From the NCBI RefSeq assembly GCF_004341885.1, contig NZ_SLVX01000008.1, forward strand, positions 1,745-65,744: DNA of 64,000 bases. Direction: 5' to 3'. The stretch is from Shinella granuli. Lineage in GTDB: Bacteria; Pseudomonadota; Alphaproteobacteria; Rhizobiales; Rhizobiaceae. Made by a program: the position numbers and the translations under genes. Under the pieces are notes generated by a model. It did not search any database and had not been told where the DNA came from. It was given only the letters and a program-made list of their open reading frames with translations. Below, one piece after another: positions 26,563-33,445 of this stretch. Each line of letters starts with the position of its first letter. The stretch's first letter is position 1.

Positions 26563-27894
26563 ATGTCACGCAATCAGGACCCCGCCTTCTGGGCGGCCGC
26601 ACGCAAGCATCTCATCCGCTACGGCGGCAGCTTCGACCCTGCCATCATCGAGCGTGCCGAGGGCTGCTTCGTCTTCGATGCGGACGAGCGCCCCATCCTC
26701 GATTTCACCTCCGGCCAGATGAGCGCGCTCGTCGGCCATTCCCATCCGCACATCGTCGCCACCGTCCAGCGCCAGATGGGCGCGGTGGCGCACCTCTTCA
26801 GCGGCATGCTGTCTCGGCCCGTCGTGGACCTTGCCGCGCGGCTGGCGGCGCTGGCGCCGGGGCTCGACCGGGTCATGCTGCTGTCGACCGGCGCGGAATC
26901 CAACGAGGCAGCCATCCGCATGGCCAAGCTCGTCACCGGCAGGCACGAGATCGTCGCCTTCTCCAAGAGCTGGCACGGCATGACAGGCGCGGCGAGCTCG
27001 GCGACCTACAGCGCCGGCCGCAAGGGCTACGGCCCCGCCATGGTCGGCTCGCTCACCATCCCCGCGCCCAACACCTTCCGACCGCGCTTCCGCCATGCTG
27101 ATGGCAGCCTCGACTGGAAGACCGAGCTCGACGACGCCTTCGGGCTGATCGACAGCCAGTCGGTCGGCAGCCTTGCCGCCTTCATCGCCGAGCCGATCCT
27201 GTCGAGCGGCGGCATGCTGGAACTGCCGCCCGGCTATCTGGCGGCGCTGAAGGAAAAGTGCCGCGAGCGCGGCATGCTGCTCATCCTCGACGAGGCCCAG
27301 ACCGGCATCGGCCGCACGGGCACCATGTTCGCCTTCCAGCGCGACGGCTTGACGCCGGACATCCTGACGCTCTCCAAGACGATCGGCGCCGGCCTGCCTC
27401 TGGCGGCCGTCATGACGACGGCGGAGATCGAGGACATCGCCCATGAGAAGGGCTACCTCTTCTACACGACCCATGTCTCCGATCCGCTGCCGGCGGCCGT
27501 GGGCCTTGCCGTGCTCGACATCGTGGAGGAGGAACGGCTGGTCGCGCGCGCCGGCCGGCTCGGCAGCCGGCTGTTCGAGGGCCTGTCGCAGCTCAAGCAG
27601 CGCTTCGACTGCGTCGGCGACGTGCGCGGCCGCGGGCTGATGCTCGGCGTCGAGATCGTCAATCCGGACCGCAGCGCCGACCACGAGCTCGGCAGCCGCA
27701 TCGCCGCCGAAGCCTTCCGCCGCGGGCTCAGCATGAACATCGTCAAGCTGCCCGGCATGGGCGGCGTGTTCCGCATCGCGCCGCCGCTGACGATTTCCGA
27801 GGAGGAGATCGACATGGGCCTTCGCATCATCGCCCAGTCCATCGAGGCGGCATCCGTCTCCGGTGCCCGCGCGCCGGGCATCGCGGCTGAATAG
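26563..27894 (+). CDS. dgdA: 2,2-dialkylglycine decarboxylase-like class III aminotransferase
   Basis: A 443-aa PLP enzyme that follows the Burkholderia dialkylglycine decarboxylase closely along its length. Visible matches to residues of that enzyme are Q52 (TSGQMS), S80 (LFSGMLSRP), W137 (SWHGM), the PLP lysine K272 (LSKTIGAG) and the C-terminal arginine in VFRIAPPLT. The known reaction decarboxylates 2-aminoisobutyrate or isovaline to a ketone and then transaminates pyruvate to alanine. GGAGG precedes the ATG. It stands 13 bases ahead of the B12-domain gene, so it probably leads the acyl-CoA mutase operon, an association I find unusual. Confidence 0.83.
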
Positions 27895-27907
27895 GGAGAA
27901 CGAGCGG

Positions 27908-28366
27908 ATGCACGACGCGAACCCTGCCGGCGAAAGCCTTTCCACCGGGCCGGCCGACGCCCCCGACACCATCCGCGTCCTCGTCGCCAAGCTCGGCCTC
28001 GACGGCCATGACCGGGGCGCCAAGGTGGTGGCGCGCATCCTGCGCGATGCGGGCATGGAGGTCGTCTATACCGGCCTCTACAAGACGCCGAAGGATGTCG
28101 TGCAGGCGGCGATCCAGGAGGACGTCGACGTCATCGGCGTCAGCCTGCTCTCCGGCTCGCATGTCCCGCTGTTCCGGGAGCTCGGCCGCTGTCTGCGCGA
28201 GGAGGGGGCGGGGCATATCCTCGTCGTCGCCGGCGGGGTCATTCCCGAGCAGGACTACCCCGCGCTGCTGGAGGGCGGCGTCGATGCCATCGTTCCCCAG
28301 GAGGCCCGTTCCGACCTGATCGTCACGACGATCACCGATCTCGTCACGGCGCGTGGCCGGATATGA
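27908..28366 (+). CDS. B12-binding small subunit of an acyl-CoA mutase (HcmB-like)
   Basis: A 152-aa stand-alone cobalamin-binding domain. The base-off motif DxHxxG is present as DGHDRG with H34, followed by the SLLSG and [12 protein letters not shown] loops that hold the nucleotide tail. This is the size of the small subunit of two-subunit mutases such as isobutyryl-CoA mutase and 2-hydroxyisobutyryl-CoA mutase. Its stop overlaps the start of the MeaB-type gene (ATGA), and the large subunit follows directly. Confidence 0.87.
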
Positions 28367-31061: not shown

Positions 31062-31811
31062 ATGAACGAGACTGTCCTTTCCACCCTCGAAGGGCCGATC
31101 GCCTGGATCACGCTCAACCGGCCGGAGCGGCTGAACGCCATGAACCGGCCGCTCGTCGACGGGCTGATCGCGGCGCTTTCAGCCGCCGAGGCGAACGACG
31201 ACATCCGCGCCATCATCCTCCATGGCGCCGGCCGGGCCTTCTGCTCGGGCGACGACCTCAAGGACCTCGACGCGCAGACCGCATCCGAAGCCGAGACGCA
31301 GGACTGGGTGGAGGCCATCCAGGCCGTCACGCGCCACATCATGCGGTCGCGCAAGATCGTGATCGCCGCCGTGCATGGCTGGTGCGTCGGCGGCGCGCTG
31401 GAATGGGCGATCAACTGCGATTTCCGGCTCTTTGCCGAGAACACCCGCTGGTTCTTCCCCGAGGTCGGCTACGGCCTGTTCGTGACGGGCGGCGTGACCG
31501 CGCTCCTGACCAAGCAGGTCGGCCCGCAGGTCACCAAGGAACTGCTCATCCTCGGCGAACGCCACGATGCGCAAAAGGCGCTGGAGACCGGCATCGCCTG
31601 GAAGGTCGTGCCCGACGACACCTTGCTCGATGCGGCCCGGCAGTTCGCCCTTGCGATCGCCAGCCGTCCGGCGGGCGCGGTGGCGGATGTCAAGCGCGCC
31701 ATCAATGACGGCTTTCACTCCTCCCTCGAAGACGCGATGGCGCAGGAGACGGCGGCAACGGTCCGCGGCTTCCTCTCTCCCGAGGCGCAGGCAAAGGCAA
31801 AAGGGTTCTGA
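31062..31811 (+). CDS. Enoyl-CoA hydratase/isomerase family protein
   Basis: A 249-aa crotonase. The oxyanion-hole segments are AFCSGDDLKDL and HGWCVGGALEWA. Both catalytic glutamates of classical hydratases appear to be kept: E114 (GGALEW) and E134 (FFPEVGYG), with the standard spacing of 20. It starts nine bases after the mutase large subunit and ends two bases before the ligase start codon, so it is part of the same operon. It could hydrate or dehydrate the 3-hydroxyacyl-CoA/enoyl-CoA formed by the mutase. Confidence 0.82.
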   Translation: MNETVLSTLEGPIAWITLNRPERLNAMNRPLVDGLIAALSAAEANDDIRAIILHGAGRAFCSGDDLKDLDAQTASEAETQDWVEAIQAVTRHIMRSRKIVIAAVHGWCVGGALEWAINCDFRLFAENTRWFFPEVGYGLFVTGGVTALLTKQVGPQVTKELLILGERHDAQKALETGIAWKVVPDDTLLDAARQFALAIASRPAGAVADVKRAINDGFHSSLEDAMAQETAATVRGFLSPEAQAKAKGF

Positions 31812-31813
31812 CC

Positions 31814-33445
31814 GTGTCCATCATTCCCGCCTTCTCGTCCCTTTCGCCCGTCCCGGGCCTTCACGACGACGAGATCGAAGAGCGTGTCCTGCCGAAGATC
31901 CTCGTCAGGCAGGCCGAGCGCTTCGGCTCCCGCCCCTTCCTCGACATCTGCGGCCGCACGGCGAGCTTCGAGGAGATGCTGGACCTCACCTGCCGGCTCT
32001 CCGGCGGCCTTCGCCGGCTGGGCGTCGGCCGCGCCGACCGGGTGGCGATGCTGCTGCCCAACTGCCTCGAACTGATCGTCACCTGGTTCGCCGTCTCCAG
32101 CCTCGGGGCGATCGAGGTGCCGAACAATCCGGGGCTGAAGGGCGAGCTGCTCTGCCACAATCTCAACAATTGCGGGGCGGAGGTGCTGGTCGCCGATGCG
32201 AATGCCCTGCCGGAACTCGCCATCGTGCAGGACCGGCTGCCGGCGCTCCGCACGCTCATCCTCGTCGGCGCCGATCCCGTAGAGGCGCGCGCGGCGGGGA
32301 TCCGGATCGGCCGCATCCTGCGTTTCGAGGAATGCCTCGCATCGCCCGCCAGCCTCGACCTTTCGGCCGTGCACTACAGCGACCCGATGGCGATCCTCTA
32401 CACGTCGGGCACGACGGGCCCGGCTAAGGGCGCGCTGATGTCGCACCACCATTGTTACGCCTGGGCGGCGGCGATGGCGGCCAATCTCGGCTACCGCACG
32501 GATGACAGCTACTTCTCCGCCCTGCCGCTGTTCCACACCGATGCGCAGATGTTCGGCGTCTACCTGCCGCTGATCTACGGCACCAGGGCAACGCTCGTCG
32601 ACGGGTTCAGCGCCTCGCGCTTCTGGGCGCAGGTGCGCGACAGCGGCGCGACGGCGACGAACCTTCTCGGCGCCATGGCCGTCATCCTCCTGCGTGCGCC
32701 GCCGGAGGCCCGCGACGGCGACAATCCCGTGCGGGTCTGCCAGTGCATTCCCATGGTGCCGGACAAGGCGGCGTTCGAGAAACGCTTCGGCATGCGCCTC
32801 GTCACCGGCTACGGCCAGACGGAGACCAGCTTCGTGACGCTCGACACCGTCGACGACGCAAGGCCCGGCTCCTGCGGCAGGGCGCATCCCGACTGGGAGG
32901 TGGCCGTCGTCGACGACAGGGACCGGCCGCTGCCGCCCGGCAGCATCGGCGAGATCGTCTCGCGGCCCAGGAAGAGCTGGAGCATGTTCTCCGGCTATTA
33001 CCGCGCCGAGGCCAAGACGGTCGAGACGCTGCGCAATCTCTGGTATCATTCGGGCGATGCCGGCGTGATGGACGCGGACGGCTGGCTCTACTTCAAGCAC
33101 CGGCTGAACGAGGCGATCCGCCGCCGCGGCGAAAACATCTCCGCCTACGAGGTGGAGACGCTGGCCGAGCAGCACCCCGACATCGTCGAAAGCGCCGCCT
33201 TCGGCATCGCCTCCGAGTTCACCGAGGAGGACATCATGGTGGTGGCCTTCCGCCGCCCCGGATCGGCGCTCGATGCGGCCGGCCTGCTTGCGCATTTCAG
33301 GGCGAACGCACCGCGCCACATGGTGCCGCGCTATATCGAGATCACCGATGCGCCGCTGCCGCGCACGCCGACGGAAAAGGTGGCGCGCAGCGTGCTGCGC
33401 CAGCGCGGCCTCGGCCCGGCGACCTTCGACCGGGGATCGCGCTAG
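31814..33445 (+). CDS. AMP-forming acyl-CoA ligase (CaiC-like)
   Basis: A 543-aa ANL-superfamily ligase. Core motifs are YTSGTTGPAKGAL (P-loop), YGQTET, YHSGDAG (hinge aspartate) and the C-terminal catalytic lysine in TPTEKVARS. It begins with GTG at 31814, right after the crotonase stop. Activation of a carboxylic acid to its CoA thioester is the expected first step before the B12 mutase; a comparable ligase accompanies known 2-hydroxyisobutyryl-CoA mutases. It ends the operon; the next gene follows after 147 bases with its own promoter. Confidence 0.85.
   Translation: MSIIPAFSSLSPVPGLHDDEIEERVLPKILVRQAERFGSRPFLDICGRTASFEEMLDLTCRLSGGLRRLGVGRADRVAMLLPNCLELIVTWFAVSSLGAIEVPNNPGLKGELLCHNLNNCGAEVLVADANALPELAIVQDRLPALRTLILVGADPVEARAAGIRIGRILRFEECLASPASLDLSAVHYSDPMAILYTSGTTGPAKGALMSHHHCYAWAAAMAANLGYRTDDSYFSALPLFHTDAQMFGVYLPLIYGTRATLVDGFSASRFWAQVRDSGATATNLLGAMAVILLRAPPEARDGDNPVRVCQCIPMVPDKAAFEKRFGMRLVTGYGQTETSFVTLDTVDDARPGSCGRAHPDWEVAVVDDRDRPLPPGSIGEIVSRPRKSWSMFSGYYRAEAKTVETLRNLWYHSGDAGVMDADGWLYFKHRLNEAIRRRGENISAYEVETLAEQHPDIVESAAFGIASEFTEEDIMVVAFRRPGSALDAAGLLAHFRANAPRHMVPRYIEITDAPLPRTPTEKVARSVLRQRGLGPATFDRGSR

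Follow-up and report, generated by a model that had tools for sequence, protein, structure and literature searches.

2-Hydroxyisobutyryl-CoA mutase (HCM) is a B12 enzyme with a separate catalytic subunit, HcmA, and B12-binding subunit, HcmB. Its gene cluster, hcl-hcmAB-meaH, has been described together with a GntR regulator, and a natural source is left open in the part of that report considered here (PMC7176365). 2-Aminoisobutyrate (AIB) is built by fungi into peptide antibiotics, and decarboxylation and hydroxylation are the routes for its breakdown given in the part of the source that we consulted (PMC7782822). We describe here a locus of Shinella granuli in which dgdA, the gene for 2,2-dialkylglycine decarboxylase, heads an operon that also encodes an HCM-like mutase. 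The locus lies in a stretch of 64,000 nucleotides (GCF_004341885.1, contig NZ_SLVX01000008.1, forward strand, positions 1,745 to 65,744; hereafter the window). Judged from sequence comparisons, the operon may degrade AIB both by decarboxylation and, in parallel, by B12-dependent rearrangement of its CoA ester to 3-aminobutyryl-CoA, a reading that, amino substrate included, we hold with about even confidence. Isovaline is perhaps also a substrate of this catabolic unit. The gene combination had been thought undescribed when it was first noticed; we likewise found no description of an operon of dialkylglycine decarboxylase and CoA mutase in the open literature, most subscription journals lying outside the search, and no mention of aminoisobutyryl-CoA in the open literature searched.

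Layout and conservation of the operon

Six genes (dgdA, hcmB, meaB, hcmA and those for a crotonase-type hydratase and an acyl-CoA ligase) run on the + strand at 26563-33445. The open reading frames bear out the compact layout first proposed: no gap exceeds 13 bases (13 from dgdA to hcmB, 9 from hcmA to the hydratase gene, 2 from there to the ligase gene), and ATGA overlaps occur at the two junctions that flank meaB (hcmB/meaB and meaB/hcmA). DgdA (26563-27894, +) matches the Burkholderia cepacia 2,2-dialkylglycine decarboxylase 1D7R over its full length (residues 1-430, E 1.4e-198). Residues Q52, W138, S215, K272 and R406 are those that we take to form the active site. All of the corresponding motif strings are in the window, and among 32 sequences, window included and a few genomes entered twice, the exact strings recur in 32 (Q52), 31 (W138/M141), 26 (S215), 28 (K272) and 28 (R406). 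HcmB, the B12-binding small subunit (27908-28366, +), is assigned by TIGR00640 (139.8 bits, cut-off 57.45) and PF02310, and MeaB/MeaH, the G-protein chaperone of the mutase (28363-29355, +), by TIGR00750 (308.7 bits, NCBIfam cut-off 240.75). The frame listed for hcmA (28353-31052) extends too far upstream, and the gene itself occupies 29352-31052 (+). Its product matches chain A of HCM (4R3U) at E 1.4e-223, the runner-up in the PDB being mitochondrial methylmalonyl-CoA mutase at E 1.6e-140. The mutase thus has separate large and B12-binding subunits with a chaperone, as in HCM, and the four identities of the original prediction (DgdA-like, HcmB-like, MeaB-type, HcmA-like) hold.

The crotonase-fold protein (31062-31811, +; PF00378, E 5.8e-50), a proposed ammonia-lyase and/or hydratase, retains in 34 of 34 orthologues its GALEW and FPE strings, which carry the two catalytic-type Glu of the fold. 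The AMP-forming acyl-CoA ligase (31814-33445, +; GTG start, PF00501) is not the PaaK-like ligase HCL. Its best NCBIfam model is PRK06155 (487.2 bits, below the cut-off of 722), and it distantly resembles carnitine CoA ligase, with 32% identity to Escherichia coli CaiC and an FH-x-D-x-Q stretch in common. This shared stretch lends weak support to a cationic substrate. A dgdR-like gene for a LysR-family regulator (25613-26470, -; PF00126 and PF03466) diverges from dgdA; it starts at the ATG at 26470 or possibly at an upstream TTG at 26497.

HcmA homologues were scanned with one genome per species, giving at least 79 distinct loci, and the counts of loci that follow are among the matches listed. 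HcmA at least 80% identical to that of the window occurs in 31 other loci, of which all but one (L055, from Peristeroidobacter soli) carry all seven genes, dgdR included. The union of decarboxylase and split mutase in one operon, as first proposed, is therefore conserved in 30 of 31. These 30 relatives and the window constitute the DGD-type loci (n = 31). Lack of conservation in relatives had been named beforehand as grounds against the proposal; the six genes stand in the same order in all 31, with dgdR divergent in every case and the six genes on one strand in 30 (by best hit). At the strand exception, L048 (JAHHDR010000046.1), the cluster is present twice, in inverted orientation, at the end of a contig, which may reflect an artefact of assembly. 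Genera with the full set include Shinella, Sinorhizobium, Mesorhizobium, Aminobacter, Labrys, Phyllobacterium, soil Brucella/Ochrobactrum, Hoeflea, Pseudogemmobacter and Roseovarius, and the nearest relative listed is Shinella yambaruensis (L035), with HcmA 99% identical. In three of 17 loci read (L056, L060 and L061) the dgdA stop codon overlaps an in-frame hcmB ATG, which argues for a single transcript. Recurrence of the seven genes in 30 of 31 loci, together with these overlaps, indicates that the operon is no chance arrangement. Twenty plasmid records (17 Sinorhizobium, 3 Shinella) hold HcmA at least 80% identical, and the operon is thus often found on large plasmids.

Co-occurrence of dgdA and hcmAB, which the original prediction had proposed as a check, depends on the side from which it is viewed. 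It is complete in the DGD-type loci (31/31). From the side of the decarboxylase, 30 genomes among 297 in the order have dgdA (E 1e-140 or better); within flanks of 1.5 kb, hcmB adjoins it in four and is missing beside it in 26. A dgdR homologue (45-52% identity) adjoins 13 of these 26 mutase-less dgdA loci.

Signature residues and descent of the mutase

Positions 90 and 117 (Ile90 and Asp117) are the signature sites of HCM. In the chain sequence of 4R3U the two are residues 101 and 128, shifted by 11 in both cases. Where 4R3U has Ile90, the window HcmA has Val, together with Asp at 117 (V93 and D120 in its own numbering). Methylmalonyl-CoA mutase is marked by a Tyr where HCM has residue 90. 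The one encoded in the window (20552-22690) reads Tyr and Ala at the two sites, and HcmA, with its Val, lacks that mark. Across 121 aligned rows, in which a few genomes are present twice, the pairs are 53 I/D, 37 V/D, 26 Y/A and 5 F/A, so that the 90 rows with Asp117 divide into 53 with Ile90 and 37 with Val90. Four columns distinguish every one of the 53 I/D rows from the examined V/D rows: query positions 90 (M/I), 93 (I/V), 106 (F/Y) and 243 (N/S).

A tree of 52 rows was built with the two signature letters masked. Sixteen V/D rows (window type, L055, L101 and L124) form one clade (support 100/100) nested within the I/D rows, and a single clade of I/D rows is rejected (p-AU 0.002). Val90 in this clade is therefore most likely derived from Ile90. 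The V/D rows L126 and L127 fall outside the entire HCM clade (100/99), and monophyly of the V/D rows as a whole is rejected (p-AU 1e-93), so Val90 arose at least twice. L126 and L127 lack a firm position among the long-branched F/A rows, which leaves room for a shared, older Asp117. On these comparisons the window's split B12 acyl-CoA mutase belongs to a lineage derived from HCM, with the signature V90/D117.

Neighbouring genes and the predicted substrate

From a hydroxy substrate the rearrangement leads to 3-hydroxybutyryl-CoA, which can be oxidised directly; from an amino substrate it leads to 3-aminobutyryl-CoA, which must shed ammonia first. Genes beside the mutases were compared with the signature, counting a crotonase at 45% identity or more to that of the window, DgdA at 60% or more, and, at 40% or more to the protein of L055, homologues of Kal, the 3-aminobutyryl-CoA ammonia-lyase of lysine fermentation; the 39 I90/D117 loci counted extend 1.5 kb or more in both directions. 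One or other of crotonase (of that kind) and Kal was found in 37 of 37 V90/D117 loci and in 0 of 39 I90/D117 loci. The crotonase accounts for the 31 window-type loci and L063, L101 and L124, and Kal for L055, L126 and L127; L045, of window type, has both. The signature was read in 36 of the 37, L062 being frameshifted there. The PaaK-like HCL has the opposite distribution, with 38 of 39 I90/D117 loci against 0 of 31 DGD-type loci. All seven genes occur in the 31 of 31 V90 loci that have dgdA; dgdA was found in 0 of the 39 I90/D117 loci, four I/D loci having a class-III aminotransferase-like match 31-32% identical to DgdA. L162-L167 were left out of this count for want of alignment rows of their own; their mutases read I/D (as L010-L015), and they have neither the crotonase nor Kal.

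Among the loci with Kal is L055. Its mutase is 85% identical to that of the window and nested in the DGD clade, and the locus has no DgdA and lacks the window's type of crotonase and ligase. It has instead a 130-residue open reading frame overlapping hcmB, whose best NCBIfam match is NF052388 (3-aminobutyryl-CoA ammonia-lyase; 135.7 bits, cut-off 160) and which matches beta-alanyl-CoA:ammonia lyase (4MTU, E 2.3e-18) in the PDB. A 3-hydroxybutyryl-CoA dehydrogenase follows the mutase, and another ligase and several peptidases are encoded nearby. The gene order mutase, hcmB, ligase, kal, meaB is found both in L127, which lies in that genome too, and in L126 (Pseudaminobacter). Beyond these genes, L127 encodes a cobalamin adenosyltransferase (over the cut-off), an amino-acid permease resembling BcaP and a LysR protein with 41% identity to DgdR. 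An Lrp-like regulator is encoded in L126, and the genome of L126 additionally holds a window-type operon (L051). Genome G228 has an incomplete set of kal, ligase and meaB genes at a distance of 13 kb from a V/D mutase, and in the DGD-type locus of Mesorhizobium sp. B2-4-15 (L045/L161) a diverged Kal homologue (81 bits) is encoded about 130 bases downstream of the gene for the substrate-binding protein. Probing with the L127 mutase uncovered no kal-type mutase among 398 genomes from the phylum; among 246 genomes from the order to which L055 belongs and 394 from that of L051 at family level, each time only the genome at the centre of the search had one. Kal is not part of every DGD-type cluster, being near the mutase in 1 of 31 (L045), and family F17 behind the substrate-binding protein reads by eye as a GNAT-like protein. 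In Peristeroidobacter soli the two different V90/D117 mutases (L055 and L127/L128) lie about 16 kb apart, among peptidase genes of types M19 and M20 (Pfam) and, by eye, S8, S9 and S15. These would fit breakdown of AIB-rich fungal peptides.

An amino substrate is favoured because it is the V/D and not the I/D mutases that accompany Kal or a dedicated crotonase, because in L055 a close mutase orthologue occurs with Kal and another ligase in place of the crotonase and ligase, and because the operon begins with DgdA, whose known substrate is AIB. In the proposed pathway, DgdA would convert part of the AIB to acetone and CO2, passing the amino group to pyruvate, while in parallel the ligase would form AIB-CoA. 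HcmAB, served by MeaB, would then shift the thioester carbon, forming 3-aminobutyryl-CoA; Asp117 would bind the amino group in the place that a hydroxyl takes in HCM. The crotonase (or Kal where present) would release ammonia to leave crotonyl-CoA, which after hydration would be converted by a dehydrogenase and a thiolase to two acetyl-CoA. That two separately arisen V90/D117 lineages of B12 mutase rearrange alpha-amino acyl-CoAs, with ammonia then removed by Kal or crotonase, is a broader proposal, which we advance tentatively and with slightly less than even confidence.

Several observations weigh against an amino substrate. The Kal homologues score 140, 135.7, 132.9 and 81 bits, all below the curated cut-off of 160, and Kal exceeds 100 bits in only three of 20 genome handles examined (two of which look like one genome). 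Co-occurrence of Kal clusters with V90 is not argued statistically, since the clusters were found by searching V90 genomes. The genome of the window has no Kal (no match to the L055 protein; best NF052388 match 26.4 bits), and the crotonase would therefore have to be the ammonia-lyase, for which we know of no precedent. The 37-versus-0 split counts related loci and not independent events, Val90 having arisen perhaps only twice, and it counts crotonases by identity to the window's own protein; another crotonase, 28-32% identical, occurs in eight I90 loci, in six of them divergent beside hcmB. Asp117 of HCM binds the substrate hydroxyl. The V90 loci L063, L101 and L124 retain the PaaK-like HCL next to the crotonase, and the known substrate of HCL is a hydroxy acid. 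Genes for an SDR dehydrogenase and a thiolase lie near the cluster in 11 of 31 DGD-type loci, the same 11 for both, and the window is not among them.

The main rival is a hydroxy-acid route, close to that of the original prediction, in which the ligase activates 2-hydroxyisobutyrate or 2-hydroxy-2-methylbutyrate, the mutase yields a linear 3-hydroxyacyl-CoA, the crotonase corrects stereochemistry or serves beta-oxidation, and DgdA takes the amino analogues in parallel as part of one tertiary-carbon regulon. It would account for Asp117 and the nesting of HcmA in the HCM radiation, for the HCL of the three V90 loci, and for the SDR-thiolase pair, which suits a 3-hydroxyacyl-CoA. However, HCL is missing from every DGD-type locus, the window-kind crotonase is missing from every I90 locus, and the Kal homologue in the L055 mutase operon would be needless. 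We regard the route as possible but doubtful. A module for alpha,alpha-dialkyl acids, as first envisaged, remains the natural reading of the shared operon; the 3-hydroxyacyl product and subsequent hydratase step are left without support, and the crotonase, Val90 and the apparent swap for Kal in L055 are better fitted by an amino substrate.

A larger or different branched substrate, such as 2-amino-2-methylbutyryl-CoA derived from isovaline, is improbable. Val90, smaller than Ile90, would make room for an ethyl group, DgdA accepts isovaline, a C5 substrate would be expected to yield propionyl-CoA, and methylmalonyl-CoA mutase is encoded just upstream in the window, L035 and L036, in the window with propionyl-CoA carboxylase genes. 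However, a C4 substrate is equally well matched by Kal and the SDR-thiolase pair, and within flanks of up to 9 kb no methylmalonyl-CoA mutase gene lies beside the other DGD-type clusters, except for a short fragment in L045. The upstream genes (16632-23099, same strand) encode propionyl-CoA carboxylase-type beta and alpha subunits, methylmalonyl-CoA mutase and a VOC-family protein that by eye resembles methylmalonyl-CoA epimerase. Membership of the carboxylase and methylmalonyl-CoA mutase in the module is not supported, as the full mutase gene adjoins the cluster only in Shinella (window, L035, L036).

The acetone released by DgdA raises a further alternative, in which a 2-hydroxyacyl-CoA lyase joins it to formyl-CoA and the mutase linearises the resulting 2-hydroxyisobutyryl-CoA. 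Such a lyase (658.2 bits, NCBIfam cut-off 600) adjoins the L055 mutase operon, but that locus is itself without dgdA, and at E 1e-120 the lyase was not found in nine of ten genomes tested, that of the window included. The route is rejected for the window's genome and very unlikely in general. The acetone carboxylase gamma subunit (PF08882) was likewise not found in the window's genome; it is present at about E 1e-44 or better in four of ten genomes tested and weak in a fifth. Shinella yambaruensis DSM 18801 (L035) has it, and the closely related genome of the window does not. With so uneven a presence, what becomes of acetone differs between genomes and does not settle the pathway.

If the proposed conversion of AIB through its CoA ester is correct, it would be a third AIB pathway and a carbon-saving one, whereas the decarboxylase loses CO2 and acetone. 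Coenzyme B12 would then rearrange alpha-amino acyl-CoAs, a reaction of which we know no published case; these would be a new substrate class for acyl-CoA mutases, and some HCM-like enzymes of soil and root-nodule bacteria might have their natural substrate among them.

Among the V90 loci, L124 (G228:C37) combines its V90 mutase with HCL, crotonase, a Rid-family protein, an SDR, parts of a ferredoxin system and P450, and next to these lie ABC transporter parts and, in divergent orientation, a glutamine-synthetase-like gene. The whole looks like a branched-amine route (tert-butylamine is a guess), and no description of tert-butylamine degradation with the mutase or hydroxyisobutyrate was found in the open literature searched.

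Regulation and comparison with described systems

The operon is probably switched by the DgdR-like regulator. Aligned dgdR-dgdA spacers contain, in 17 of 17, TATCAA, one variable base and TTTAC; in the window this conserved element, ACTATCAATTTTAC, lies at 26500-26513 (no strand assigned) and is a candidate promoter or operator. A CATATCA block was also considered as a LysR operator and withdrawn because in the window it contains the dgdR start codon and Shine-Dalgarno-like bases. No cobalamin riboswitch or other Rfam RNA was found at gathering scores in window positions 16000-39000. A substrate-binding protein of a branched-chain amino acid ABC transporter (24431-25549, +; PRK15404, 364.6 bits, below the cut-off of 477) is possibly associated; such a gene is close by in 27 of the 31 DGD-type loci.

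The locus shares features with five described systems. With DgdA/DgdR of B. cepacia it has in common the full-length DgdA match, the active-site motifs and the divergent LysR gene; unlike the window, 26 of the 30 dgdA loci of the order have no adjoining hcmB. The AibH1H2 pathway of Rhodococcus wratislaviensis also provides for AIB breakdown that does not rely on the decarboxylase and has a LysR gene in its cluster, but it proceeds by O2-dependent hydroxylation to alpha-methylserine, and no B12 mutase is named in the consulted part of the source (PMC7782822). CaiC and CaiD of E. coli K-12 resemble the window's ligase (the 32% identity and shared stretch noted above) and crotonase (29% identity to CaiD); unlike the window, the 5 kb stretch read there holds no B12 mutase, and the substrate is a quaternary amine. 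Homologues of Kal, missing from the window's genome, lie beside V90/D117 mutases in L055, L126, L127 and L045, all scoring below the curated cut-off. The best structural match is to HCM of Aquincola tertiaricarbonis (4R3U). The window differs from this system in Val90 for Ile90, in query positions 90 (I for M), 106 (Y for F) and 243 (S for N), in the absence of HCL, in the addition of dgdA and the crotonase, and in a LysR gene where HCM clusters usually have GntR. It shares with HCM the split subunits, the MeaB/MeaH chaperone and Asp117, and its lineage nests within the HCM radiation.

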